From: a virus | Strand: one strand, 5' to 3' | DNA: 37,139 nucleotides | IMG/VR virus record: IMGVR_UViG_3300007346_000083 | Span: 1-37,139 of that record | Shown: positions 1 through 14,000 of the stretch, piece after piece | Numbering within the stretch: the stretch's first letter is position 1 | Layout of the letters: every line of letters starts with the position of its first letter | Made by a program: the position numbers and the translations under genes | The notes under the pieces: model-generated | The model's database searches: none | What the model was told of the DNA's origin: nothing | What the model saw: only the letters and a program-made list of their open reading frames with translations

Positions 1-1307
1 GTTGATGCAAGTGCAACACCACCATGATTTGCTGTTGTATCTGTTGATGCATCATCTCCATTAGAATCAGTTCTAAATCCAAGAATAAGATCTGCATCAC
101 TGACTCTAAGAGTTTCTGTGAATAATGTTGCAGAAGTACCGCCGATTGTTATGCTTCCATCAACATATAAATCTCTACCTATGGTAACATCTCTACCAAC
201 AAATAAATCATTGCCATTAAAAGTTAAATTGGCAGAACCTGCTGGATTATTCGATCCATCTTTATATACAATCTGATCTGCAGATCCAGCTACTGGTCCA
301 GTAATACCTTGAACACCTTGAGTTCCTTGGATTCCTTGAACACCTTGGACACCTTGAACACCTTGAACACCTTGAACACCTTGGATTCCCTGGATACCTT
401 GCGTACCAGTAGTTCCCTGTCTACCTTGAGTACCTTGAGTTCCTTGGATTCCTTGAACACCTTGGACACCTTGAACACCTTGAACACCTTGAACACCTTG
501 GATTCCCTGGATACCTTGCGTACCAGTAGTTCCCTGTCTACCTTGAGTTCCTTGAACACCTTGGATACCCTGAATACCTTGGATACCCTGAGATCCAGTA
601 GTACCTTGAGTTCCTTGGATACCTTGAATTCCCTGAATACCCTGAGAACCTGTAGTTCCCTGTCTACCTTGAGTTCCTTGAGTTCCTTGGATACCTTGAA
701 TTCCCTGAATACCCTGAGAACCTGTAGTTCCCTGTCTACCTTGAGTTCCTTGAGTTCCTTGGATACCTTGGATGCCCTGAATACCTTGGATGCCTTGGAT
801 ACCTTGGACTCCCTGAGAACCTGTAGTTCCTTGTCTTCCTTGAGTTCCTTGAGTTCCTTGAACACCTTGGATGCCCTGAATACCTTGAGGTCCTACTTGT
901 TGATTAAAAGTAATGGTTGCAGTTGTGCCAGAACCAGTTGCAGTAACTCCATCCCCAACAAAATTGATGGTGTGATAATCTGTACCAATACCTACACCCT
1001 CTTCTTCTATTTCAACTCCAGTTAATGCGGTATTAATAATATTATCAATAGTTTCTATTGAATTTGCATTTGCCCAAGTTACACCCGCCCCAGTAGAAAC
1101 TAAAATTTGTCCCTGAGAACCTACTCTATTATCTCTATCATACAAACTTCCACGTAATCTTAGATCACCATCAACATCTAATTCGGCAGTTGCTGATGTG
1201 GTCCCAATACCAACCTTGCCAACAACTTCAACAGTTGTTTTATTCTCCGAATAAGAACTTATGCCGACTTTTAAATTCTTTTGGCGATTGCTAAGATACT
1301 TTGCCAT
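1..1307 (-). CDS. Collagen-like tail fiber protein, 3' end outside the window
   Basis: This frame opens with ATG at 1307 ([12 protein letters not shown]) and stays open for 435 codons to the left edge, so the C-terminus is missing. Residues 1-138 are a beta-rich head, with a [20 protein letters not shown] stretch like those in phage fiber proteins. Residues 139-339 are an uninterrupted Gly-X-Y collagen-like region with Gln in most Y positions. After it comes a module containing [18 protein letters not shown], which resembles one near the C-terminus of the 753-aa fiber in this window. Collagen-like stretches in phage fibers form trimeric rods, so this is probably a trimeric fiber or appendage reaching towards the host; that is inference. 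It starts 21 nt after the 109-aa gene and has no clear Shine-Dalgarno or late promoter, so it probably depends on upstream transcription. Confidence 0.85.
291..893 (-). repeat. Collagen-like Gly-X-Y coding repeat, 67 triplets, nested 9-bp units
   Basis: The stretch consists of 9-bp units, each coding one Gly-X-Y triplet, from GPQ at 885-893 to GPV at 291-299. Typical triplets are [15 protein letters not shown] and GTT. Higher-order duplications are visible. A 72-bp block of eight units is repeated back to back at about 617-760. A block starting at 327 recurs at 444, a 117-bp offset, and is identical for about 104 bp. Every offset is a multiple of 9, so the frame is kept. Confidence 0.95.
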
Positions 1308-1328
1308 TTTTAGTTAAAAACGTATTGA

Positions 1329-1658
1329 TTAATTTAATGATTCTAAAATGCTTGTAACAAATTTTAAATTTGAAGCATTGCTTCCCGATAATACTAATTT
1401 ATCTCCACTTTCAAGTACTAATTTTCCAGTCAATAAATTTGCAGTATCATTTCCTGAAATTGGAAAATTTTTTAATAATTCTGTATCAGTTGCACTTCTT
1501 CTATGTAATAATGTAATATCTTCAGTTGTCGATCCAATGTTTGCAACTTGTGCTAAAAGAACAACACCAGTATATCCAGTTGGAGCTGTATATACTTCTG
1601 TTGATGTTAAATCGACTACTGCCGTGATAGTTTGAAATACATTTAGTGCTAATGCCAT
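1329..1658 (-). CDS. Small beta-rich virion protein of the marine T4-like type
   Basis: A 109-aa protein that begins MALALNVFQTITAVVDLTS. It has alternating hydrophobic strands, the segment TAPTGYTGVVLLAQVANIG and the ending KFVTSILESLN. From memory this pattern recurs in small conserved structural proteins of marine T4-like phages, next to fiber genes; no biochemical function is known to me. It has no signal peptide, membrane segment or cysteine. The start is well supported: a strong Shine-Dalgarno (TAGGAGAA on the minus strand, about 1661-1670) sits in the last codons of the 621-aa gene, and only one base separates that gene's TAA from this ATG, so translation is probably coupled. A small fiber-associated or decoration protein is the likeliest role (inference). 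Confidence 0.8.
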   Translation of the reverse strand: MALALNVFQTITAVVDLTSTEVYTAPTGYTGVVLLAQVANIGSTTEDITLLHRRSATDTELLKNFPISGNDTANLLTGKLVLESGDKLVLSGSNASNLKFVTSILESLN

Positions 1659-1659
1659 A

Positions 1660-3525
1660 TTATTCTCCTAATGCTAGAATGAATGGGGTTAATGTGGAAA
1701 ACAAACTCTTAGAATAAAATCTTCCAGAAATAGTTCCGGTTTGCTGGTCAACTAAAACTCCATCACCAATTCTAAAATTACCTGCCTGATCTGTCGAAGT
1801 ATAAACAACAAGTCCTCCATTTCTAGAATCAGTTTCCTGTTTTTGAATTGGAATTCCTCCAGCTTGAGGGAAAGCGGAATCAATATCAGTTCCTGTACCT
1901 ATGTATTCCATTGAATGTCCTGATGCAAGAACTCTACTTTGTTTGAAGAAAACTGCAGTGGATCCAACTCCGACAGAATATGGAACGTTTTCTGTTACTG
2001 TAATGGTACAAATGCCAGAAACAACTGGCGTAGATTCTCTAATTGAATAATATGTTGGAGTTAAAACTGGAGTTCCAGTAGCTGTTGTTCCTGCTTCTTG
2101 AGGATCTGAAATAGTAACTGATGGAACACTAGTGTATCCTCTTCCATTAGAAACAATTTCAACACCAATCACTTGACCATTTTTAACTTCAGCAACAGCT
2201 GTTGCAGGAACTCCCCAAGAAGTCGATGGATCACTAATTGAAATCGATACATTGTCAGTGTATCCACTTCCACCATTAGTTATATTAATATTACCGATAG
2301 TATAGTATAAATTTTCAATATAAATTACTTGTCCATCAAAAGGTCTTACTGCATTTATTGCAACTGTTCCTCCAGATGTATATGTGTGGGGTAAAGTTGA
2401 TGCTCCAACATATACCTCAAATGATGTTGAACTTGGAATCGCATTTACTTCAAAAATATACCCACTGTTTCCTGATGGATATGTTACTGTAGTTACTCCT
2501 CCATCAGAAGTACAAGTAAATCCAAGACCAGAAATGGTCAGTCCCATACCAACATTAAAGTTGTGATTGGAATCGACAGTTATTGTTGTAAGACCAGTTA
2601 TATTATCGTATAGAGCATTTGTAACATTAAATGTTGGAACATTTAAATCTAAAACAAATGTATCAGAATTTGCTGCAGCAGGACTAGTAATAATTCCAGT
2701 ATATTTTTTTGGTCCTATGCCATCGGAAACTAATGCATAGTTACCAAAAGAAGAGTTTGAGTTGGTTAAATCGCAAGCACCACCACTACCACAATAAACT
2801 GAAATGTCATTACAAATAGTAAATAATGAAACTAACTGAGCATATCCTTCATTTGTAATAGAAACGCCAATACCACCTTGATTATATTGAGTAAAAGAGT
2901 CTGTAACCATACTCTTCAATTTACCGATACAATCGGTACCATCAATTTTTAATCCAATACTATTAGAAATAAAATTTGTACAGTTTCTGATGTATGGTGA
3001 TTGTGAAACAAATCCAACGGTATGTGGATCAAATCTAAAGCAAGCCTTTCCAGGATCCATTGATCCCTTAAAAGACATCTCTGTAACATAAATACCTTCT
3101 CTCACATAAAAGAGATCTTGATCAGAGTTTTGTGGAGTAATTGTAACTTCCCTTAAACTATCTCCAACTATAGAAACCTGCTTTGGAATAGTTAAAGGAT
3201 TATCTTCTACATAAGATCCAGCAGAAATTCTAATAATGGATCCTTCTTCTGCAATGGCAAGGGCTCCTTTGAGGGTTCCTTTGGCGTCTCCAAGTTTTTT
3301 TCCTGTGTTTGTATCGCTTCCGTCTTTTGTGACATATAAAACATTAGATACTGTTGCTCCAGCACCGACTCTTACAATATCGGTGCCAATTCCTGACCTT
3401 TCTCTCCTAACTAAGAGATCGGCATCATAGGTGTTGAGGGCTATCTCACCTAGAGATAATTGCCCTAACGTTGGTATTTTTCCGGGTACAGAAGACCTTT
3501 TAAGTTTAATATTTGGATCTGCCAT
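1660..3525 (-). CDS. Virion protein with parallel beta-helix (pectate-lyase-like) domain
   Basis: A 621-aa protein. Residues 1-50 (MADPNIKLKRSSVPGKIPTL, then LSLGEIALNTYDADL) match the N-terminal attachment segment common in phage fibers, where a K-R-S/G stretch precedes a 'GEIA' motif. Residues about 65-290 look like a right-handed beta-helix of the pectate-lyase type: a YVTKDGSDTNTGKKLGDAKG start, then GSIIRISAGSYVEDNPLTIP and rungs of IRNC and NSIGLKIDG type. I see no clear catalytic triad, so whether it is an enzyme or only a rod is open. Residues about 410-490 hold two GGSGYT-type repeats shared with gp14 and the giant proteins. The start has a good Shine-Dalgarno (GAGAGG, about 7 nt upstream) and its own late promoter with a 5' hairpin. 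Likely a tail fiber or spike component. Confidence 0.85.
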   Translation of the reverse strand: MADPNIKLKRSSVPGKIPTLGQLSLGEIALNTYDADLLVRRERSGIGTDIVRVGAGATVSNVLYVTKDGSDTNTGKKLGDAKGTLKGALAIAEEGSIIRISAGSYVEDNPLTIPKQVSIVGDSLREVTITPQNSDQDLFYVREGIYVTEMSFKGSMDPGKACFRFDPHTVGFVSQSPYIRNCTNFISNSIGLKIDGTDCIGKLKSMVTDSFTQYNQGGIGVSITNEGYAQLVSLFTICNDISVYCGSGGACDLTNSNSSFGNYALVSDGIGPKKYTGIITSPAAANSDTFVLDLNVPTFNVTNALYDNITGLTTITVDSNHNFNVGMGLTISGLGFTCTSDGGVTTVTYPSGNSGYIFEVNAIPSSTSFEVYVGASTLPHTYTSGGTVAINAVRPFDGQVIYIENLYYTIGNINITNGGSGYTDNVSISISDPSTSWGVPATAVAEVKNGQVIGVEIVSNGRGYTSVPSVTISDPQEAGTTATGTPVLTPTYYSIRESTPVVSGICTITVTENVPYSVGVGSTAVFFKQSRVLASGHSMEYIGTGTDIDSAFPQAGGIPIQKQETDSRNGGLVVYTSTDQAGNFRIGDGVLVDQQTGTISGRFYSKSLFSTLTPFILALGE

Positions 3526-3555
3526 TCAACCTCTCATAGTTGGTAGAAACCGTAT

Positions 3556-3575
3556 AGATTCTTATATAAGAATCT
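3556..3575. promoter_or_regulatory. Perfect 20-bp palindrome in the leader of the 621-aa gene
   Basis: The sequence from AGATTCTTAT to ATAAGAATCT reads the same on both strands. It lies just downstream of the late promoter at 3580-3587. By T4 late-promoter spacing the transcript would begin at about 3574-3575, so the RNA could fold into a hairpin at its very 5' end. The palindrome has no spacer, so an RNA hairpin would lose a few central bases to the loop; protein binding to duplex DNA is an alternative. Confidence 0.6.
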
Positions 3576-3579
3576 TTAT

Positions 3580-3587
3580 TATTTATA
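3580..3587 (-). promoter_or_regulatory. T4-type late promoter TATAAATA for the 621-aa gene
   Basis: A perfect TATAAATA on the minus strand, in the 80-bp gap upstream of the 621-aa gene and 54 nt before its ATG. In T4 this motif is read by RNA polymerase carrying gp55 and gp33. It sits in an intergenic gap, which supports function; the same octamer also occurs by chance inside genes in this AT-rich DNA. Confidence 0.7.
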
Positions 3588-3605
3588 GCATCAAACTAAT
3601 TCAGA

Positions 3606-3797
3606 TCATTTAAAATCTTCAGATTCAGTTTTAGGTATTCTTTTAGATTTTTTTAATTTTTCCAACTCATTTTGTAGAGATATGTTTTTCTGTGTTACAG
3701 TCTCTATCTGAGTTTCTAACACAATTGTTTTATTAAAAAGGTCAAATGCTTTTTGTTGATATTTTGCCACTATTGCTTTTAAATCTTCTTCAGACAT
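3606..3797 (-). CDS. Small coiled-coil protein, unknown function
   Basis: A 63-aa charged, helical protein beginning MSEEDLKAIVAKYQQKAFDL. Residues about 20-52 (VLETQIETVTQKNISLQNEL, then EKLKKSK) show heptad spacing typical of a coiled coil. There is no membrane segment or cysteine. Small proteins of this kind recur among marine T4-like phage fiber genes from memory, but I know no assigned role; a trimerisation aid or fiber-assembly factor is possible (inference). There is no Shine-Dalgarno: the ATG is preceded directly by eight T residues that also form the tail of a hairpin. A late-promoter-like AATAAATA lies 29 nt upstream. Confidence 0.75.
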   Translation of the reverse strand: MSEEDLKAIVAKYQQKAFDLFNKTIVLETQIETVTQKNISLQNELEKLKKSKRIPKTESEDFK

Positions 3798-3830
3798 AAA
3801 AAAAATACACCCAATAAACTGAGTGTATTT
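3798..3830 (-). terminator. Hairpin with T-tract, terminator-like, touching the next ATG
   Basis: On the minus strand AAATACAC (3830-3823) and GTGTATTT (3810-3803) form an 8-bp stem with a 12-nt loop, followed by further T residues up to 3798. This resembles a weak rho-independent terminator after the 753-aa fiber gene. The stem is AT-rich, so termination would be partial at best. The T-tract ends exactly at the ATG of the 63-aa gene. Confidence 0.5.
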
Positions 3831-3833
3831 ATT
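3826..3833 (-). promoter_or_regulatory. Late-promoter-like AATAAATA before the 63-aa gene
   Basis: AATAAATA on the minus strand differs from T4 TATAAATA only at the first base; NATAAATA is used as a consensus in marine T4-like phages. It overlaps the first arm of the terminator-like hairpin. The predicted transcript start, about 3820, is 23 nt before the 63-aa ATG. Confidence 0.5.
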
Positions 3834-3852
3834 GAAATTATTTAATTAATTA

Positions 3853-6114
3853 TCAGAATGATCCACCGTCAACTGTAATATTTTGAAGAACCAATTCAGA
3901 ACCAGAACAAGCAATTACTGACGATGATCCACCAGTGCAAGAATTATTAATCCAAAGCTCTGAAATCTCAAGTGGTGCGTATGCTGAAGGTGTAATCTGA
4001 GGAAGATCTGTAGTAACTCCAACAGATTCTGTCAGATCTGAAGCAAGTATAAATCTCGAACTTGATGCTTCCCAAATGATGGCAGAAGTTTTTCCAACTC
4101 CAGAGTCACCATAATTCATCAAAATTCCAAGATCCCAAGTGGTATCTGTTGGAAGTGCTCCATCAACAACACCAAGTTCAATGGTGCGATCTTCAACTGT
4201 GATTTCTGATGTATTTACTTGAGTTGTTGATCCATTAACAATCAAGTTTCCGCCAATCGTTAAATCTGAAGCAGTTTCAATAGTTCCAGAAGCATTAACT
4301 GTAATTGCATTAGATCCAGTCGTTGACTTAATAGATCCTGCTTGAATTACTCCAACACTAAATGTACCAGTTCCACTTGGATTGAGTGATGCAGCAGCAC
4401 TAACTCTTACAGTCTCACCTTGTTCTCCTGCAGAAGTATCTGCAAAGAGCATGTAATAAGTTGCATCAGTAGTATCGCCAGTAGTATCTACTGTAATTGA
4501 ACGAGTTGCTGTTGCGGCAGTACCACTGATAGAACCAATATTTGCAGTTCCCGTAACGTGGAGATTGCCAGTGATAGTTGTACCACCACCAACAGTGTAT
4601 TGTGATCCGCTATCAACAAGTTGACCATTCGCATCATCCCAAGCAGGCAGGTAATTATTAGTTAAGTTTGCTGCGCCTTTTAATGTAACTGCGTCAGATG
4701 TGATGGTAATTCCAGTTCCAACATTTACCGAAAGATCTACAGTTTGACCTTCGCCAACAGAAGAAGTTTTTGAAAGACCATCGCCAGCAGTTACGTCTTC
4801 AACATAGTTGCCAGTGGTATCTGTTCCCAGTTCAACAGAATCTGCTTGAATTGCTGCAACTCCATCAGATCCAATTAAAATATCACCACTAACTCTTCCA
4901 AAAGCATAATTGCTTACATCAAAAGCACTTGTTTTGCGACTTGCAGTAGCTGTAAGATCATAAACAACAAATTCATCGTCATCGGCAAGTGATGATTCTG
5001 AAGTTAATCCGGTAATATTAAGATTGGCATCTATTGTAATATTTTGAGTGCCATCGAATGATGTTGGACTACCAGTAACTTCTCCACTAATTGCAATTGT
5101 TCTTGCAGTAGCTAAAGATGTTGCAGTTCCTGCATTTCCATCAAATGTTGTTGCAGTAACAATACCAGTTCCAGCATTAATTCCGGAAGCACTGATTGTA
5201 ACACCAGCACCGACAGATAATGAAGTGGTAATTGCAACTACATTTGGCAGTCCAATGGTAAGTGTCTGACCAGATGCAGAAGTCTCAATCTCATTTGTGG
5301 TTCCTGCAATAGTGAGAGATTGACTATCAAGGTCAACGGCACCAGTTCCACCAATACCATCAGCAAAGTCTAAATCTTGTGCTGTAACTTGGTTATCAAC
5401 ATAAGTTTTAATTGCAAGTGCTGATGCCAAAGTCTCATGAGAACCAGCAACTGTGGATAAATCAGTGTCAATATCAGTTATTGGTGTAGAATTATTAATT
5501 GTTAAGTTTGTAACTGTTGCAGCAGTTCCAACTAAGTCAGTAAATGTACCTGCTGCACTTGTTCCAGATCCAATTACAGTGCCATCAATGTTACCACCAT
5601 TGATATCGGCGGTTGTAATTGTAGTAGTGCCGGAAACATTAACACCGCTACTAAAATCAGCAAAAACGTTTACATCTAGTAGTTGGTCACCACCATTCGG
5701 TCCTATTGTTGTGATTCCAAGAAGAGTTGTATTTGTAAGTTCTGGATTGGTAGTAACATCTGACCAACCCAGAGTACCATTTGAGTCAAGAACTTTAAGG
5801 TAATAACCAGAATTGATGGTATTAGTATCTGGAAAAGTGTAAGTTCCAATACCACTAAGACTTTCTGGAGACTTTAATTGAATGTAATTTATTCCATCCT
5901 GATCGACTAGATTAAGGCCTGCAGAGCGAGACCCATCTTCTCTAGTCCAATATCTATGCGATCCGAAAAACTTGTTTCCAGTTACAGAGGTATCAAAACC
6001 AATAAAAAAGTCAAAATTGTTTGTCGAAAACGCTGGTTCACCTGGGTGCAACGCTGGAACTGTTCCTGCAATTCCAGCAGCACCCCTTTTAAATTGAATT
6101 TTTGGTGATGCCAT
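3853..6114 (-). CDS. Large tail fiber-like virion protein
   Basis: A 753-aa Ser/Thr/Gly-rich, beta-rich protein. The N-terminus (KIQFKRGAAG, then PALHPGEPAFSTNNFDFFIG) is the phage fiber attachment type also seen in the 621-aa protein. The middle has repeated strands such as VTNLTINNSTPI and, near residues 325-365, an ATARTIAISGEVTG plus FDGTQNITI repeat of the kind found in many side tail fibers. Residues about 618-660 contain DLTIGGNLIVNGSTTQVNTS and then VEDRTIELG, a module resembling one in the collagen-like protein. It ends NITVDGGSF. It has no membrane segment or visible enzymatic motif. A late promoter plus a 9-bp inverted repeat lies just upstream, and its Shine-Dalgarno (GAAG) is weak. 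Probable role: fiber contacting the host surface (inference). Confidence 0.85.
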   Translation of the reverse strand: MASPKIQFKRGAAGIAGTVPALHPGEPAFSTNNFDFFIGFDTSVTGNKFFGSHRYWTREDGSRSAGLNLVDQDGINYIQLKSPESLSGIGTYTFPDTNTINSGYYLKVLDSNGTLGWSDVTTNPELTNTTLLGITTIGPNGGDQLLDVNVFADFSSGVNVSGTTTITTADINGGNIDGTVIGSGTSAAGTFTDLVGTAATVTNLTINNSTPITDIDTDLSTVAGSHETLASALAIKTYVDNQVTAQDLDFADGIGGTGAVDLDSQSLTIAGTTNEIETSASGQTLTIGLPNVVAITTSLSVGAGVTISASGINAGTGIVTATTFDGNAGTATSLATARTIAISGEVTGSPTSFDGTQNITIDANLNITGLTSESSLADDDEFVVYDLTATASRKTSAFDVSNYAFGRVSGDILIGSDGVAAIQADSVELGTDTTGNYVEDVTAGDGLSKTSSVGEGQTVDLSVNVGTGITITSDAVTLKGAANLTNNYLPAWDDANGQLVDSGSQYTVGGGTTITGNLHVTGTANIGSISGTAATATRSITVDTTGDTTDATYYMLFADTSAGEQGETVRVSAAASLNPSGTGTFSVGVIQAGSIKSTTGSNAITVNASGTIETASDLTIGGNLIVNGSTTQVNTSEITVEDRTIELGVVDGALPTDTTWDLGILMNYGDSGVGKTSAIIWEASSSRFILASDLTESVGVTTDLPQITPSAYAPLEISELWINNSCTGGSSSVIACSGSELVLQNITVDGGSF

Positions 6115-6132
6115 GTTATTCTTCGCTATGAA

Positions 6133-6158
6133 ATTTTACTATTATTATTTAGTAAAAT
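6133..6158. promoter_or_regulatory. 9-bp perfect inverted repeat in the fiber gene leader
   Basis: ATTTTACTA (6133-6141) and TAGTAAAAT (6150-6158) are exact inverted repeats around an 8-nt AT-only spacer. They sit between the late promoter at 6171-6178 and the ATG of the 753-aa gene, so the hairpin would form near the 5' end of the leader. No T-tract follows on the minus strand, so it is less like a terminator than a 5' leader structure. Confidence 0.6.
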
Positions 6159-6170
6159 AAAGAATTTTTA

Positions 6171-6178
6171 TATTTATA
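6171..6178 (-). promoter_or_regulatory. T4-type late promoter TATAAATA for the 753-aa fiber gene
   Basis: A perfect TATAAATA on the minus strand in the 65-bp gap between the 111-aa gene and the 753-aa fiber gene. It lies 56 nt before the fiber ATG, giving a predicted leader of about 50 nt. Confidence 0.7.
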
Positions 6179-6179
6179 C

Positions 6180-6515
6180 CTAAAAAAATCCGCCATCAAT
6201 ACTTGGATCTAGTTCTGACTTAATTTCATCAACAAATTCATCGGCATAAGATGGTCCAAATTGGTTTGGATTTACTAAACCCGGTTGTACAGGTTCTAAT
6301 GCTGCTGATTGGAGGACTTCATCTGGATTTTTTGCAATCCATTTTTGACTGCTAGCATCATACATCAGAACATATTGATCAATAACTCCATTACCACTAT
6401 TTCCATCATCAAAATCTATCAAATCCGAAAAACTTGCAGGCACTTGAACACCTCCAACACTTGAAACTACTTTAAATTTACTTGAGGACTTTAGTTTGAC
6501 ATTAAAACTAGACAT
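6180..6515 (-). CDS. Conserved-type small virion protein, unknown function
   Basis: A 111-aa protein starting MSSFNVKLKSSSKFKVVSS, with a central DQYVLMYDASSQKWIAKNPD segment and the ending DPSIDGGFF, which echoes the NITVDGGSF end of the neighbouring 753-aa fiber. The 'YDASSQKW' pattern also occurs in fiber-type proteins, so this may be a separate fiber head or adaptor; that is inference. Its ATG lies inside the last codons of the 117-aa gene (8-nt overlap, different frame), with a strong Shine-Dalgarno (GAGGAAA) about 9 nt upstream, so the two are probably translated together. Confidence 0.75.
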   Translation of the reverse strand: MSSFNVKLKSSSKFKVVSSVGGVQVPASFSDLIDFDDGNSGNGVIDQYVLMYDASSQKWIAKNPDEVLQSAALEPVQPGLVNPNQFGPSYADEFVDEIKSELDPSIDGGFF

Positions 6516-6861
6516 TGTTTGTAATTTCCTCAGAAACTATAATCGTACCCTCTACAATTCTACTGGTAAGAGAACCTGCAGATGGAGAAGAAATGATACT
6601 TACTTGAAAATAATTTCTGCCAGGTTTTAATTTTGCAGTTTCAGTTTTTGCCAAAGAAACTTTGATATCATTTGTTCCGGGATCAAAAACCGCCGCTTTT
6701 TCAAATCCAGTAGATGCTCCTGGATATTTTTTAAGAGAAAAAATGCCAGAGTATCCTTGTGTAAAGCTATTTGGTTCTAAATCTTCACCAAAAATATCAA
6801 AAGTAACCTCAAAATCAGTTCCTCTTTCAATAGTTATCGTATTAATTTGAGCAACAGACAT
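6508..6861 (-). CDS. Small beta-sandwich-like virion protein, unknown function
   Basis: A 117-aa protein beginning MSVAQINTITIERGTDFEVT. The alternating strands, the central GIFSLKKYPGAST segment and the closing RIVEGTIIVSEE suggest an immunoglobulin-like or baseplate upper-protein (BppU) N-terminal type beta sandwich; this is a fold guess only. It has no signal peptide, membrane segment or cysteine. It lies directly after gene 16 and overlaps the 111-aa gene by 8 nt. A late-promoter-like GATAAATA lies 18 nt upstream, at the end of gene 16. Shine-Dalgarno is weak. Confidence 0.75.
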   Translation of the reverse strand: MSVAQINTITIERGTDFEVTFDIFGEDLEPNSFTQGYSGIFSLKKYPGASTGFEKAAVFDPGTNDIKVSLAKTETAKLKPGRNYFQVSIISSPSAGSLTSRIVEGTIIVSEEITNNV

Positions 6862-6877
6862 TTTCTTACTTTTTTAA

Positions 6878-7327
6878 CTATTTATCTTCCTGAGTATCTT
6901 TTGATTGTTGTTTTAATAATTTTGACAACTCTGCAGTTGATCCGATGAACAGAGCATTATTTGTTACATTGGTTGGACCTTTCACCCTATCAGTTTCAAC
7001 TTCTTTAATATCTTTATGTAGATTCATTAGTTTATCTGCTGTATCAGAAACGCTTTTGATTATCTGTCCAGCAACTTCATATGCCCTAGCAGATTCGGTC
7101 TCTTGGGCAAGTTCTAAAGCACCATTTATCGCCTCTTGCCCCTTTTCCAAAAGAGAGTATATTGTACCTCTTGCATATTCATAATCTCTTTGAATATCTG
7201 TAGATCTTTTATTCTCTACTATTGGAGTTGGTTCAATTTCAGATTTTTCAATATCAACATCAACCGATTTGGGTACTATATCCCCAGAAACATTAAAAAC
7301 ATCATCCAACTTATCATAATCTTTCAT
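6878..7327 (-). CDS. gp16: Terminase small subunit, T4 gp16-like
   Basis: A 149-aa protein; T4 gp16 is 164 aa. The conserved core, residues about 50-110, contains YEYARGTIYSLLEKGQEAI, then ALELAQE and RAYEVAGQIIKSVSD, matching the paired-helix core of T4-like small terminases. The N-terminal 45 residues are acidic and low in structure, as usual. The small subunit binds DNA and regulates the gp17 motor during DNA packaging. It follows gene 15 by 8 nt. Gene 17, which follows 16 in T4, is not next here: fiber genes fill the space down to the left edge. Shine-Dalgarno is weak. Confidence 0.93.
   Translation of the reverse strand: MKDYDKLDDVFNVSGDIVPKSVDVDIEKSEIEPTPIVENKRSTDIQRDYEYARGTIYSLLEKGQEAINGALELAQETESARAYEVAGQIIKSVSDTADKLMNLHKDIKEVETDRVKGPTNVTNNALFIGSTAELSKLLKQQSKDTQEDK
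6879..6886 (-). promoter_or_regulatory. Late-promoter-like GATAAATA before the 117-aa gene
   Basis: GATAAATA on the minus strand fits NATAAATA. It overlaps the stop codon of gene 16 and lies 18 nt before the 117-aa ATG. It would start a new transcript at the boundary between the neck/terminase genes and the fiber island. Confidence 0.45.
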
Positions 7328-7335
7328 ATCTTTAC

Positions 7336-8355
7336 TTAGAATAGATCTCCATCAAATCCAAAATCATCTCCAGGTTGTATTAATGCATTATCTGCTTGAG
7401 TAATCAATTCAATTGAAGATCCACTCACATGAGTCGTAATAGTTGTTCCATATTGACCTCTAGAAACAACTAAAGTATCTTGACCTATTACATCAGTTCT
7501 ATCTATCTTATCAACTACTCTCATAGTTTCATTATCAATTGTAATATATGAATTTATTGGGACATTTGCAGCTTGCTGTACAGTAATTTCTGTAGTGGAT
7601 TCTGTCATATCAGAATTTAATGTTGTAATTACCAAATCACTATAACTCTTAGTTGCAACTGGAGTAACTGAGTATGTAAGATCTCTTGAAGTTGACTTGG
7701 AATCTCCTGAAACAAGAGAAACAGTTGCTTTTTTGATAATGTCTTTGTTTGCAGAAGAAGTAGGACCAAATAGATATGTCTTTGCACTAAATCTTAACGT
7801 GTAAACAAGTGCCCTTCTCGTAGTATAATCTCCCTCATAATTATCTTCCATATTAATGGAATCTAAAACAATTGACACATCTCTTTTTTCGCCAATAGAT
7901 TTGACCAGATCAATAGTTACATTATACGAAGGTTGAAAATATGGCAAAATTTGTTCAATTATTTGAAGCATATCATCATTTAACTTAGTCATAATACTAA
8001 GTTCAAATTGCATATTATATGGAACAGGCATATATGTTTTCTTCAAATCCGTAGAATCTGTTGAAGATTTTGATATAAATGTCTGCGTTGTCGTAAGTTT
8101 TCTTGTTGGATCATAAGAAAGACCAACAAATTCAAATGACATTCTTGGCAAAGTCATTTGAACTGGAGTATTTAAATCTGGTTGCTGCTCAATTCTTGCA
8201 AGAAACTTTTGAATTGGTCCATAAGAAAGAGGAACCTTGATGACAGAACTTACGTCACCAGAGTCATCAAAGTGCTTAATGTTTATTGCATTAAACAGAG
8301 TTCCAAATCCAATAATTGTCTTTCGGAATATTTCATTATAGTAATATTCGAACAT
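7336..8355 (-). CDS. gp15: Tail completion / sheath stabiliser protein, T4 gp15-like
   Basis: A 339-aa protein; T4 gp15 is 272 aa. The start MFEYYYNEIFRKTIIGFGTL and the segment QIIEQILPYFQPSYN (about residues 127-142) align with T4 gp15, whose equivalent is QIVEQILPYFQPHFN. gp15 caps the tail tube and sheath and connects the tail to the neck. Residues about 243-318 are an extra beta module (TTLNSDMTESTTEITV, then SYITIDNETMRV and TLVVSRGQYGT) that I do not recall in T4 gp15 but that resembles modules in the two giant proteins of this window. The tail after it is short and acidic. Shine-Dalgarno AAGAGG about 6 nt upstream. Confidence 0.94.
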   Translation of the reverse strand: MFEYYYNEIFRKTIIGFGTLFNAINIKHFDDSGDVSSVIKVPLSYGPIQKFLARIEQQPDLNTPVQMTLPRMSFEFVGLSYDPTRKLTTTQTFISKSSTDSTDLKKTYMPVPYNMQFELSIMTKLNDDMLQIIEQILPYFQPSYNVTIDLVKSIGEKRDVSIVLDSINMEDNYEGDYTTRRALVYTLRFSAKTYLFGPTSSANKDIIKKATVSLVSGDSKSTSRDLTYSVTPVATKSYSDLVITTLNSDMTESTTEITVQQAANVPINSYITIDNETMRVVDKIDRTDVIGQDTLVVSRGQYGTTITTHVSGSSIELITQADNALIQPGDDFGFDGDLF

Positions 8356-8369
8356 ATTAACCTCTTAAT

Positions 8370-9782
8370 TTATGGAGTTCCAAATGGATTTTTTTCGCTA
8401 AAATCTAAAATTAAATCTGCCTCAGTTTCAATTTCAAGATTATTTGCAAATTTATCGCCAGTATTTGAATTATTTAGAGACCCAGTATCTGAAAGGTTAT
8501 CTTCATTTATTTTTCTCAAAACATAAGATGCACTAGATTCTAAACCAGTAATTATTTCTCCAACTTTAAAGTTTCCTGTAATATTTGATACTTCTAAAAT
8601 ATTAGTAACAATATTCCAATACTTAACTCTTCCAGTTGTTCCAGAAATACTTCCCGTAATCACTTCATTGAACTTAAATGTTCCAGTTCCACCAGTAGAA
8701 TCGGGGTTGCCAATTGTAATGTCTGGTGCAGATGTATAACCAAGTCCAGCATTAATAATTTGAATACTACTTACAGATCCATTACTTAATACTGCAGTTG
8801 CTGCAGCAGAAACTGTAGATATTCCTGTAAAAATAATTGTAGGTTGGGTAAGATATCCAGATCCAGATTCTGTAACTGTTATTGGACCAATAACTCCATC
8901 ACCAATAGTTGCGGTTGCTTCTGCTCCAGATCCTTCCCCTCCAATAAAAGTAATTTGTGGAGCAGTTGTGTATCCAGATCCTGGATTAGTGATTAAAATC
9001 TTTTGGACCCTTAAGAGATTGGGATCAGATTCGCAAAAATCAACTATACCACTAATCATTTCAGCAACAGCTGTTGCTTTTGTTCCTCCCGATCGTGGAG
9101 AAGAAAACTTAACTTCTGGAGCACTTGTATAACCAGAACCTCTGTTGGTAATTGTTACAAATCTTACTCCACCATTTACGATTGTTGTAGTTGCTTCAGC
9201 AGTTACCCCAGCACCAATCATATTCAAAGTTTGAATATATCCATAATCTTGAATATTATCATCAATAATATCAATATCAGTATCAATAACTTCATCTTCA
9301 TATCTGAAGAGTTCGCAAGATAATTGATAAACGTAATTTTTCTGAAGCTGATAAAATGGTTTTTCATGCTCCACATACTTAATCTCAAATAATCTATCAC
9401 CAAGAGGAAAATAAATTAAATCCCCTTCCTTTGGTCTGGATGTCAATTTCGAATTTGGAATTTTTTTGATAAGATTTTGAATATAATTTTCATATCTTTC
9501 CTTTGAAATCGTAAGAGTTAAATCATCCAACTCTTGAATTCCAAATTTTGAAAGAATTGTTCCTTGTCCAGAATAACCATCATATGATTCTACATATGCT
9601 TCAATTGGAAATGCTGTATTAAATTCAGACTCAACAACTTCTTTTATTACTGTTTTCTCATTTACAAATTGTCTCGGTAAATAGAAAACGTCAATACCAT
9701 ACATTCTAAGAGACTCATTGATTAAGTCTTGGAGCATTCCCTGCTCACTTTTAGAACCGTTTAGTAGAAATGGATTAAGCAT
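8370..9782 (-). CDS. gp14: Neck protein, T4 gp14-like, with four inserted Gly-rich repeats
   Basis: A 470-aa protein; T4 gp14 is 256 aa. Residues 1-175 align with T4 gp14: YVESYDGYSGQGTILSKFG and PKEGDLIYFP followed by RLFEIKYVE. The end ENPFGTP resembles the T4 end around SSPFDND. Between them, residues about 184-361, are four copies of a GSGYTSAP-type repeat (at about 210, 271, 305 and 346), then a GRVKYWNIVTN...GEIITG module near 380-412. gp14 joins gp13 in the head-tail connector, so these extra modules should project from the neck (inference). It follows gene 13 by 4 nt. Shine-Dalgarno is weak. Confidence 0.94.
   Translation of the reverse strand: MLNPFLLNGSKSEQGMLQDLINESLRMYGIDVFYLPRQFVNEKTVIKEVVESEFNTAFPIEAYVESYDGYSGQGTILSKFGIQELDDLTLTISKERYENYIQNLIKKIPNSKLTSRPKEGDLIYFPLGDRLFEIKYVEHEKPFYQLQKNYVYQLSCELFRYEDEVIDTDIDIIDDNIQDYGYIQTLNMIGAGVTAEATTTIVNGGVRFVTITNRGSGYTSAPEVKFSSPRSGGTKATAVAEMISGIVDFCESDPNLLRVQKILITNPGSGYTTAPQITFIGGEGSGAEATATIGDGVIGPITVTESGSGYLTQPTIIFTGISTVSAAATAVLSNGSVSSIQIINAGLGYTSAPDITIGNPDSTGGTGTFKFNEVITGSISGTTGRVKYWNIVTNILEVSNITGNFKVGEIITGLESSASYVLRKINEDNLSDTGSLNNSNTGDKFANNLEIETEADLILDFSEKNPFGTP
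8700..9230 (-). repeat. Four GxGYTSAP-type repeats inside gene 14
   Basis: Each copy codes a pattern of hydrophobic strand, N-x-G-S-G-Y-T-x-x-P, strand, then G-G/S-x-A-x-A-T-A. Spacing varies from about 34 to 61 residues. Copies of the same pattern occur in gp8, the 621-aa protein and both giant proteins. The DNA copies are diverged, unlike the collagen-coding repeats. Confidence 0.85.
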
Positions 9783-9786
9783 AAGT

Positions 9787-10620
9787 TTAACCTATCATAT
9801 CTAAAGGTGGAAGTTCATAAGTCGAAGACATCTTTTCCATTAAAGAATCAATTTCTCTTTGAGCATCTTCAACAAGAGTTCTACCATCCAACTCAACTCC
9901 TCCTGGAAGTTTAAGACCTCTAAATTTATTGGAAATGTTATATCCCCACTGTCTCTTCATAAGTGCAGTCAAATATGGTTTTAGGAAAGAATCATTCCAA
10001 ACTTCACTATAACTAGTTGGGTCCATTATTTGATAACAATCGATAATGAGATAATCTCCAACATTAATAGAATTCCAATCAATATCAAGATACAATCTAT
10101 CTTGTCTCTTATTAAACCTAATTTGCTTATCCGTATTTAATAAAAACTCAATATCTTGAAGTTTTGTTTTTATCATTGAATATGTGAGAAGTTCTAAAGA
10201 ACCCCACTGATAAAAATCATTTAAAAATAATTGGTATTTTACACCAAAAAGATTTCCGGAGATAGTATTTTCACCTTCATATTTGAAAATTTTATTAACT
10301 CCAATTACATTTGTGGGTATTGGTAGATAATTACTATTTTCTTTATAATCAAACTGAGTTGTTATACCATTAATTGTATTATTAACTGAGGTCGTTGTAA
10401 TTCCAACTTTTCCTTTACCCCTATCAATATCTTCTTGAGTTACTTGATACTTTAAATAATTTTGAATGACTCCATCAAAATGCCTTTCATAGAAAAACTG
10501 AAGTGCATCATCAACAAGATCATCAATCTGTTCATCTGCAATGTTGATTTCCAGAACTGGATAACCCAATTTTCGTAGACAATAATCTATTAATTGTTGT
10601 CTTGTGGATGGTTTTGCCAT
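9787..10620 (-). CDS. gp13: Neck / head completion protein, T4 gp13-like
   Basis: A 277-aa protein; T4 gp13 is 309 aa. It begins MAKPSTRQQLIDYCLRKLG and has NIADEQIDDLVDDALQFFYE near residues 25-45, followed by RHFDG, a pattern I recall for gp13 in marine T4-like phages. Its position directly before gene 14, 4 nt apart, supports the call. gp13 and gp14 form the neck ring under the portal after packaging. There is no sign of the inserted modules seen in gp14 and gp15. It lies 6 nt after the 56-aa gene and has no clear Shine-Dalgarno. Confidence 0.9.
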   Translation of the reverse strand: MAKPSTRQQLIDYCLRKLGYPVLEINIADEQIDDLVDDALQFFYERHFDGVIQNYLKYQVTQEDIDRGKGKVGITTTSVNNTINGITTQFDYKENSNYLPIPTNVIGVNKIFKYEGENTISGNLFGVKYQLFLNDFYQWGSLELLTYSMIKTKLQDIEFLLNTDKQIRFNKRQDRLYLDIDWNSINVGDYLIIDCYQIMDPTSYSEVWNDSFLKPYLTALMKRQWGYNISNKFRGLKLPGGVELDGRTLVEDAQREIDSLMEKMSSTYELPPLDMIG

Positions 10621-10626
10621 TAGAAT

Positions 10627-10797
10627 CTATGTAAATTTAGATACGATTTCTTGTTGCTTGAAATATAATTTGACAAATGCTTTTGCAATATGCTTTGCTT
10701 CCTCAATATTTTCTATACTATCTATATCTCTAGCAAGTTTCTCATACTCAAACATTTTACTAAAGTTTTCAAGTTCAACCAAATCCAAATCAATCAT
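10627..10797 (-). CDS. 56-aa helical protein, unknown function
   Basis: A short gene read as ATG at 10797 to TAG at 10627-10629. The protein begins MIDLDLVELENFSKMFEYEK and ends FKQQEIVSKFT. It is charged and predicted helical throughout, with no membrane segment or cysteine. The start overlaps the stop of the 72-aa gene (ATGA), a typical translational coupling, and its stop is 6 nt before gene 13, so it fills the only gap here. I recall similar small proteins in marine T4-like phages but no function. A small chaperone or regulatory partner is possible; this is a guess. Confidence 0.75.
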   Translation of the reverse strand: MIDLDLVELENFSKMFEYEKLARDIDSIENIEEAKHIAKAFVKLYFKQQEIVSKFT

Positions 10798-11012
10798 TTT
10801 AGAGTACTCTTTAATAGACTTTTAATTTCATTAATATCATTTTTTAGAGAATTTAAATCATTTTCAATGTTCTCAATTCTTTTCACCTCACTTTGTTTTA
10901 TATTTCGCATTTTAATATAATTCTCATACTCATTAATGTTAGTATTAATGATTGATTTGGTTTTTTCGTCACGAATTAGATTTTCGTGACCTTCTATTTT
11001 ACTATAGTTCAT
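10794..11012 (-). CDS. 72-aa coiled-coil protein, unknown function
   Basis: Begins [20 protein letters not shown] and ends with a heptad-rich stretch (VKRIENIENDLNSLKNDINE, then IKSLLKSTLK, about residues 43-72) that should form a coiled coil. The N-terminal half (INTNINEYENYIKMRN) is also helical. It shares one base with the stop of the 2786-aa gene (TAATG) and its own stop overlaps the next ATG (ATGA), so three genes are coupled. It resembles, from memory, a conserved short protein of marine T4-like phages of unknown role. Confidence 0.8.
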   Translation of the reverse strand: MNYSKIEGHENLIRDEKTKSIINTNINEYENYIKMRNIKQSEVKRIENIENDLNSLKNDINEIKSLLKSTLK

Positions 11013-14000
11013 TATGCCAATGCAATTACTCTAAGGTCTCTTAATTTTGGTGGATATACTTGAATATTTGAAGAAACAGTTAGTTTAATGGTAAAATATC
11101 TGAATTCTGCCAGATTATCAACACTAAACTCATAATCTTTGAAGTAATTCTCAGTATTTCCATTTCCAAATAGTTCATTATTTGGAACAAATTTATCAGA
11201 TGTTCCATCACTATTGTTAATATCAATCACTTCTCCGGATAAAAGTTTATTTGAATATCCTGGGAATGGATAGTAGATTGGAGTTTCTGTTGGATCCTTC
11301 ATTAGTGCATAGAATGCTCTAATATCAGAATTTCTGTTAATATATGCAGCAATATAAGTTCTTAGTGAAGTTGCAGGAACTTCCAAAGAAATTGGTTTTG
11401 TTATATAGAAGAACGCTGTTGGATCTTTTTCTATAGTAGAAATTCTAGAATCATTTATATAATCTTCAATAGGTCTATTGATTCTATTTGAAACCAAAAT
11501 TGCTCCGACACGATCTAGATCAATTACTGGAGTTAATCTATCATTTTCAGTTGATAAGAATGTTCTAAGTTCTAAAGACTTGCCTGCTGGTTGATTTTGT
11601 AAATAAGTGGTTTCGTTTATTTTGGAGCAGATTAATCTACTTGTGCTCATGTTATTATCAACATTCAAATCAACTCTTTGATATCCTTGATCAACAAAGG
11701 AAGGTTCAACACCACCAATACTTGTAGCAGAAATAGTTCTCAAATCTGAAGCAATATTTGTTTCTGGTAGAATAAAAGTTTCAAGATTTGGTTTAATAAT
11801 TTCGAACTGAATATTACTTGATGCCTTAACAGATAATCCACCAGTAGACTTTGTATCTCTAAAGTATAATGGTTTAAGTGTAGTATCTGATCTTACAGTA
11901 TCGATGTAGATTGTGTAATAGTCTAATCCAATTGGATCAAGAACAGAAGCGTCTTGAAGATTGTGAGTTGTATTAATTCTGGTAAGTGAAACTCCATTCA
12001 ATTCATACTTATAAACATCTGATCCTTCAAAGTGTGAGGAAATAACTCTTAATGTTTCAGTATCACTACTAATAATATCACGAGTAATGCCAGTTATCTG
12101 ATTTCCAGAAATTCCAGTATATTTAATAATTTCTTTATCAATCAATATAAATCCAGGATTTGTTATTGAAACTGGAGCACCTTCAAAAGTTGCAAATATT
12201 GAAGTATCGGAAAGAGTAATTCCTGATAAACTAGTATCATTTGGTGAAATGTTTTCAATCAAAGTTACTGGAGAAATATCCGAAACAATATTGGACAATT
12301 CTACAAGATTAACTTCGGAGTGCATGCCATGATTTTGATGATTTACTTTAATGTGCAGACCATCCGTAATTTCTGTAAGTTCAGTAATATTGACTGGATT
12401 TGTTATTCCATTATTTATATTGACGTTAGTCAAAGATTCATTTGTATAAGTTAAAGTATAACCAATTCCAGTTAAGAAATTGCCTTGTACATTATCAATA
12501 ATAAGTTGATTAAAATCTGTTACATCATCTACAGTTAACAATAAGTTTCTACCTAAAGTTTGATCACCTAATTGACTTACTGATAATACATCACCTTTCT
12601 CATATCCAGTTCCAGTTGCCGAGATTGTGGCAGCAATTGCAACTCCATCATTAAAAGTTCCATCTGGAAGGATATTTCTTCCAATAGTAATATCTGCTGT
12701 TGCTAATCTTCCTTCAGAAGAAGAATTTTCTAATGGAACGTTAAAGTATGTGAAAGAAGTTCCATTGGATGGGGTATATCCAATTCCACTATTTGTAATT
12801 GAAACACTTGTAATAGATCCTGTAGCACCAACATAATTTCCTGTAGCACCAGTACCATTTTGAACTATTGTATTACCTAATTTAAATAATGGATCTGAAA
12901 GAGTTTCGGAAATATCAACTTTAATTTTTCTTGAGAAAATTTCTAGAGGATTATTTCTCAATGTTGAGAATTGTTTATTTTTCTTGGTCAAATCTGGATT
13001 GAAGAAACTTGCATTACCTTCAGTTTCAAATACCGCAGAATATAGGGTAAATTTCAGATCTTCAAATTGACTTGGGGTCCAAGTAGAAGCATTTTGGGAT
13101 TTGAATAGAGAACCAATTGTACTAATGTCTGGTTGACTTGCAACAATAGTTCTTCCAGATTCTGGTAAAGATGCTGTAGTTATATCAACTTCACCAAGTC
13201 TCGAAATCCAAACGTAATAATTTGTTGAATCTGATTTAATTACTACAGCGTGTTCAGATTCTCCTTTGAGATAAACTGGAGCATCAAATTGAATTCTTGT
13301 TGCTACAGAAGCATCTTCAGAAATTTCAATGTCTTCAGGATATACAATAACCTGAGAGAATGGATATATTTCCCCAGTTGGAAGACCTAAAGACATTGGT
13401 CTTAATTCAACAATAACTGGAAGAGAATCATCTTTGGATTGGAAGAATATGTCGATTGCTGTTACGAATCTTCCTTCTTTAGCACTAATTGTGAATGATT
13501 GTGCTAATGGATCCAATCCAATTGGTGGAATTAAATCAGTTGATGCGGTATCTTTTGATTCTTTCCACTTTAAAAGGAATGCGCCGGAAGAACCATCTGC
13601 GCCAGAACCATCATCGATTCCGCCGCCACCACCGCCACCGTAGGTGCCACCTCTTCCACCATCTTCCTCTCCACAATTTGGAACTTCTCCATCTGTTCCA
13701 CCAGAACCTGCAAATTTTATACCATTTCCGCCAGGTCCTCCAGTTCTAGATGAACAGTCTTTGTATTTTGGATGTCCACAGTTTCCTCCACCGACTCTAC
13801 CGGCACCTCCTCCATATCCACCTCTATCATCATCATCTCTATCATATCTTCCATCTTCACCTCTTCCTCCACCACCACTATTTTTTCCTCCAAATCCTTT
13901 AGAAGAACTTGATCCACCTACGCCACCTCTGGCAGATATATTTTTACCAAGAATAAAACTTGCCCCACCGTCCCTTGCTTTATTGTCAGAAGTTGCTCCT

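Follow-up and report, generated by a model that had tools for sequence, protein, structure and literature searches.

A covarying two-hairpin RNA leader 5′ of phage tail-fibre genes with a gp37-type N-terminal domain

Fibre genes and late promoters at the locus

The window is the whole stretch of viral DNA that was analysed, 37,139 nucleotides in length. Genes for two fibre proteins, of 621 and 753 amino acids (aa), lie on its minus strand together with the following features.

1660–3525 (−): gene for the 621-aa tail-fibre protein (PHROG 17885, tail fibre), with a gp37-type N-terminal domain (MADPNIKLKRSSVPGKIPT..LGEIALNTYD)
3530–3535 (−): GAGAGG, likely Shine-Dalgarno sequence, judged from the sequence
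3542–3551 (−): hairpin 2, GGT-TTCT-ACC (family form GGT-ANAT-ACC), supported by conservation and distant covariation
3556–3575 (−): hairpin 1, AGATTCTT-ATAT-AAGAATCT, with an ANAU tetraloop at 3564–3567, supported by compensatory change and a match to covariance model CM R1
3580–3587 (−): TATAAATA, the T4-type late promoter that serves the 621-aa fibre gene, with its predicted +1 near 3574
3606–3797 (−): gene for a coiled-coil-like 63-aa protein, directly 5′ of the 621-aa gene
3853–6114 (−): gene for the 753-aa fibre protein, whose hairpin falls outside the element described here
6133–6158 (−): 9-bp inverted repeat before the 753-aa gene, its loop covering most of the CTAAATA at 6146–6152
6146–6152 (−): late-promoter-like box CTAAATA, kept 5′ of the closer 753-aa homologues, including that of S-B43
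6171–6178 (−): the TATAAATA assigned to the 753-aa gene by a sequence-only reading of the window, missing from homologues except for two loci with the window sequence

The sequence-only reading had described a promoter, hairpin and leader arrangement common to both fibre genes. The parts that it named are present: a perfect TATAAATA stands 5′ of each gene, at 3580–3587 (−) and 6171–6178 (−), the 20-nt palindrome AGATTCTTATATAAGAATCT occupies 3556–3575, the 9-bp arms before the 753-aa gene lie at 6133–6141 and 6150–6158, and the leaders, given as about 50 nt, measure 49 and 51 nt on the assumption that +1 lies 6 nt 3′ of the TATA box. T4 late promoters consist of a TATA box about one helical turn 5′ of the start (PMC2988020). 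An equal or better perfect arm turns up in about 2% of shuffled gaps for the palindrome before the 621-aa gene and in 3–4% for the inverted repeat before the 753-aa gene. Because each repeat alone is thus a 2–4% event, comparison with relatives had to decide.

At the 753-aa gene this comparison went against a shared arrangement. Some 8 nt separate the hairpin from the predicted +1, so that it is not 5′-terminal; it is not conserved, and it is folded round a second late-promoter-like box; closer homologues of the 753-aa protein keep CTAAATAAT, not TATAAATA. As a second example of the leader it is ruled out by loss of its 5′ arm in loci L092–L097, by the S-B43 homologue, which has no such hairpin, and by CM R1, which finds nothing at this gene beyond a 12-nt promoter-only match with an E-value of 9.8.

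The further claim that hairpins are absent from the other late promoters holds within the window, where one of seven promoter-like sites scores. A genome-wide rule of 5′ hairpins at late promoters is ruled out by P-SSM2, in which some 5′-proximal hairpin occurs at 6 of 61 promoter-like sites against 3.1 expected, at least two of them with a terminator-like T-run. Several cyanophage leaders have CTAAATAAT as their late-promoter-like box (window copy at 6146–6152 (−)), and counts based on TATAAATA only will therefore miss promoters.

Several observations concern the neighbouring genes. The late promoter of the 63-aa gene overlaps the 5′ arm of a terminator-like hairpin (window 3798–3833, (−)), the T-run of which abuts the start codon (AATAAATACACTCAGTTTATTGGGTGTATTTTTTTT-ATG). 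The same arrangement is seen in S-B43 and in many of L003–L018, L030, L034, L038, L050 and L078, and the arms covary in relatives (GAGGGAG/CTCCCTC, GACCCA/TGGGTC, GGGGAAG/CTTCCCC). Such a hairpin could be a compact insulator, in that a new transcript, starting within it, would lose it and upstream transcripts could terminate at it. A C-terminal DGGxF motif is found in a 111-aa protein (window 6180–6515, ...IDGGFF) and in the 753-aa protein (...VDGGSF). It ends 61 of the 544 ORFs in the loci of the domain scan described below, often just 5′ of a fibre gene, and is possibly a C-terminal assembly signal. Two genes 3′ of the 621-aa gene, on the same strand, the window encodes a collagen-repeat protein (Pfam PF01391; 3–1307, (−)), and the two genes are probably carried on one transcript.

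Covariation in the leader of the 621-aa gene

Leaders of relatives were taken as the regions 5′ of 621-aa homologues in IMG/VR and read directly. Nearly all of them contain [T/A/C]ATAAATA or CTAAATA, then a spacer of 4–8 nt and then a hairpin with a four-base loop. Across the family hairpin 1 has a stem of 7–8 bp, an ANAU loop and a mean stability of −6.2 kcal/mol, and it begins at about the predicted +1 of the late promoter. In 136 relatives the median distance from TAAATA to the first pair is 5 nt, which together with the spacing of T4 late promoters places it at +1. The arms differ widely yet pair (CTCTT, GCAGT, CCGAT, CCAAT, CTTCAAT, GGATT, CTGAT), and the loop is ANAT in 39 of 40 protein-derived leaders. 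The same leader precedes homologues in the isolates S-SRM01, P-SSM2, B23, S-PRM1 and S-CAM9, and CM R1 matches window 3542–3586 with 49.4 bits.

In 40 distinct leaders, aligned on the loop and motif 2 and checked by slid and shuffled controls, 94.6% of hairpin 1 cells are paired and both-sided, compensatory changes occur at six of seven pairs; for both helices together 96.3% of cells are paired. The covariation score of the whole structure is 0.606 against 0.154 for shuffled alignments and was reached in 0 of 500 shuffles, counts that are not probabilities since the sequences are related by descent, and the score collapses once pairing partners are slid. These 40 leaders were chosen for carrying GGTNNNNACC, so that helix 2 could not vary among them. 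An alignment made by MAFFT only was discarded, as it misaligned the two main types of stem by two columns. The compensatory arm changes for which the sequence-only reading had asked are thus found at the 621-aa gene, and its proposal of selection for structure is strongly borne out for this leader and not supported for the 753-gene hairpin. The element does not have the form of an intrinsic terminator, a stem followed by a T-run: four or more T within 6 nt after the stem are seen in just 29 of 136 elements, and the window copy is without a T-run.

Between hairpin 1 and the ATG lies a second motif, GGTNNNNACC (window 3542–3551), which the sequence-only reading did not mention. It is kept by almost all 621-gene homologues at 1 to 17 nt, mostly 7–17 nt, 5′ of the start codon. 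In the 40 aligned leaders, where it was the selection criterion, GGT/ACC is invariant, and hairpin 2 shows no covariation in the cyanophage core because it is always GGU/ACC there. Distant relatives have CTGT-AAAT-ACAG, CGTT-ACAT-AACG, GGCT-ATAT-AGCC, GCT-AGAT-AGC or CCT-ATAT-AGG at the same place. With these included, covariation reaches 0.417 against 0.091 for shuffled data (0 of 500), the 35 variants in this count having been gathered by eye and being biased toward pairing. From this comparison of sequences we conclude that hairpin 2 is a real stem. With only 3 bp its stability is marginal (mean −0.3 kcal/mol), which suggests that it is conserved for recognition and not for stability; the predicted fold of the window leader shows hairpin 1 and replaces hairpin 2 by a different pairing. 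Motif 2 is unlikely to be a Shine-Dalgarno surrogate, as it is kept in groups with and without GAGAGG, among the latter the MATP group of leaders. Loop–loop kissing of the two hairpins was also considered and is not kept, the loops ACAU, AGAU and AAAU not being self-complementary.

The kind of mismatch tolerated in hairpin 1 bears on whether the selected molecule is RNA or duplex DNA. At stem position 6, G-U outnumbers A-C by 19 to 2, whereas just outside the stem (positions 8–9) the counts are 19 and 53 (Fisher p = 1.5e-7, p-values here being weakened by sequence kinship). In the protein-derived set, stem positions 1–6 hold 11 G-U and no A-C. Tolerance of G-U and not of A-C inside the stem points to sense-strand RNA.

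Distribution of the leader and its linkage to the fibre N-terminal domain

The 621-aa protein is matched to no family in Pfam and PDB sequence searches, and its model is of low confidence (mean pLDDT 56), with partly beta-helix-like hints in the body. Its N-terminal domain, IKxKRSxxxGxxPTxxxLxxGELAxN, has a tblastn match to gp37 of JS98 with 61% identity over 41 residues; the query was consensus-like. The domain scan described below likewise had a self-composed, consensus-like alignment as its query, and identities to it are approximate.

Two scans of IMG/VR used the promoter and one stem type only, drawing on neither motif 2 nor the protein. They gave 161 promoter-and-hairpin sites in the analysed loci, with GGTNNNNACC at 152, and every one of these 152 precedes a gene with the domain M(A)xPxIxIKRSxVxGKxPTxxxLxLGELAxNTYD. 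Likewise, across the whole of the sequence analysed, all 138 elements with promoter, a hairpin of at least 5 pairs and motif 2 precede the domain, which is slightly divergent in two cases. At least four unrelated groups of fibre body are represented among the proteins encoded after the element, all with one common gp37-type N-terminal domain. Starting from the domain instead, an apex hairpin, defined as T-ANAT-A with at least three Watson-Crick pairs, including one or more G-C, within 75 nt 5′ of the start, was found before 59 of 64 domain genes and 1 of 229 other starts, and this lone exception also encodes the domain, which the pattern had failed to recognise. A second convincing copy of the leader was found in none of 20 records searched.

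The association extends beyond T4-type late promoters. The Synechococcus siphovirus S-CBS2 has both apex hairpins, the second four nt from the ATG, and in bacterial genome contigs the hairpin occurs at 8 of 19 domain genes and at 0 of 131 other starts; neither S-CBS2 nor these contigs have a T4 late promoter at the hairpins. In L453, L454 and L456 hairpin 2 is retained alone.

The pairing of leader and domain is not obligatory, because the domain also occurs without the leader in several phages and contigs. The gp37 proteins of T4, JS98 and Yersinia phage TG1 have the domain and lack the leader, the annotated gap before T4 gene 37 being 8 nt; S-SKS1 and S-T4 retain the promoter and the domain but not the hairpin; and S-SCSM1 and several alphaproteobacterial contigs also have the domain without the leader. 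Co-occurrence is accordingly a weak guide to the identity of a binding partner. In S-B43, which was outside the training set, a different fibre body with domain and leader stands at the position of the 621-aa gene (covariance model match, E-value 3.3e-5), and the 621-type body is found elsewhere in the genome without domain or leader. The linkage could merely reflect fibre bodies recombining 3′ of both leader and domain.

At the leader, a search of Rfam 15 over window positions 1–12000 and eight loci returned no match at gathering score, only chance-level ones, and recovered PhotoRC-II as a positive control. This PhotoRC-II RNA lies near the fibre leader of a cyanophage contig (L236, 2114–2208, (−)). 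Literature searches, subscription papers excepted, found neither this leader nor any RNA control of a fibre gene.

A candidate operator and its known counterparts

The leader of the 621-aa fibre mRNA is almost certainly a real structured RNA, to judge from its pattern of pairing. Its covarying sense-strand stems stand 5′ of one gene family, as in structured cis-regulatory leaders, and, as in gp43-type operators, a hairpin with a conserved apical loop lies 5′ of the start. The apex is alike in both hairpins: the loop, usually ANAU, is closed by a U-A pair. By analogy with known operators we propose, with a probability of roughly 0.45, that the leader is a cis-acting operator bound by an RNA-binding protein that controls translation of the fibre mRNA. 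The leader would act in cis and post-transcriptionally, and the protein would read both apices and so set the translation, perhaps also the lifetime, of the message. Candidate partners are the N-terminal domain of the fibre itself, another phage protein or a common host protein, and a transcript beginning at hairpin 1 could also have a protected 5′ end. Autogenous control, a special case, seems unlikely: here the gp37-type domain would read the twin ANAU hairpins and limit its own translation, and the control unit would have moved with the domain among T4-like cyanophages, siphoviruses and phages or prophages of other bacteria, fibre bodies being swapped as the leader–domain unit spread.

The sequence-only reading had preferred a 5′-terminal stabiliser, with hairpin 1 shielding the triphosphate end from pyrophosphohydrolase and RNase E. 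The geometry fits at hairpin 1, the stem of which begins at the predicted +1 as a 5′-terminal hairpin requires and has free letters with pairing kept. A stabiliser would need neither a fixed ANAU loop nor a hairpin near the start codon, however, and it leaves unexplained the restriction of the element to one gene type per genome, the promoterless members (S-CBS2 and the bacterial contigs), and L387, L392, L394 and L402, in which the stem lies about 18 nt 3′ of the nearest ATAAATA; we regard it as doubtful, and at best as one component of the explanation. Alternatively, the RNA might act on transcription, as a put-like antiterminator or promoter-proximal pause hairpin that would load a factor onto RNA polymerase, or as a weak terminator of upstream transcripts. 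Such a role would suit the two hairpins that immediately follow a promoter where a run of fibre genes begins, and also the T-run after hairpin 1 in S-CBS2 and L455, but the scarcity of T-runs elsewhere and a hairpin 2 that adjoins the start codon in all groups, even where it stands alone, make this quite unlikely. A DNA-level junction for fibre swapping, in which promoter and stem-loop mark a cassette boundary for homologous or site-specific recombination, would account for the unrelated bodies behind one leader and N-terminal domain and for the S-B43 swap at the same gene position. It is nevertheless improbable, as homology-driven exchange needs like sequence and the stems differ widely, being kept only as pairs, and as the G-U tolerance is strand-specific. 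A palindromic site for a regulator of double-stranded DNA, the alternative of the sequence-only reading, is highly improbable: many members do have palindromic TATATA and GGTATATACC, but the arms are not conserved (CTCTT, GCAGT, CCGAT, CCAAT, GGATT and others) and vary freely with pairing kept, G-U replaces A-C within the stem though A-C is commoner just outside, and loop centres such as AAAT and ACAT are non-palindromic.

No genes of tailed phages are exchanged more than the fibre genes, which set host range. That the leader has outlasted many swaps of fibre body and is found in more than one phage family suggests regulation of fibre dosage. The leader is clearly under selection and is probably a handle for controlling the amount of host-recognition fibre; its 45 nt offer a means of testing dosage control in cyanophages available in culture, among them P-SSM2 and S-SRM01, and in metagenomes it is a marker for fibre genes with the gp37-type anchor domain.

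On comparative grounds the fibre leader is a new structured RNA of a known kind, the phage cis-regulatory leaders, and its coupling to a fibre anchor domain is unusual. The put RNA of HK022 consists of two stem-loops transcribed immediately 3′ of a phage promoter. It resembles the fibre leader in this placement and differs in its longer stems, its early promoters, its action on RNA polymerase and the lack of a tie to a start codon. The PeSL cassettes of T4 are reportedly mobile regulatory units of promoter and stem-loop at places of gene exchange, proposed to be recombination junctions; they have early promoters and many genes, whereas the fibre leader is confined to one gene type, and its promoter, where present, is a late one. 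At T4 e, soc, 49 and I-TevI, a hairpin and a late promoter likewise occur together before a late gene, but in those genes the 5′ arm contains the promoter, and late transcripts consequently lack the hairpin that sequesters the ribosome-binding site. The fibre leader has no late promoter inside a 5′ arm: its promoter is 5′ of hairpin 1, the predicted late transcript keeps the hairpin, and the start region is outside it. PhotoRC-II, wcaG and manA are candidate structured leader RNAs of T4-like cyanophages found by comparative genomics (PMC2864571); these Rfam RNAs belong to other genes and have other folds. In T4 and RB69, the operator bound by gp43 is a hairpin with a conserved tetraloop, about 40 nt 5′ of the gene 43 start (PMC3014915). 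Like the fibre leader, it is a leader hairpin of a T4-type mRNA that is accompanied by a further element close to the ribosome-binding site (PMC3014915). It has one hairpin with a UAAC loop, belongs to a DNA polymerase gene and has been shown to exert autogenous control, whereas the fibre leader has two ANAU-loop hairpins, belongs to a fibre gene and is, by analogy, a candidate operator.
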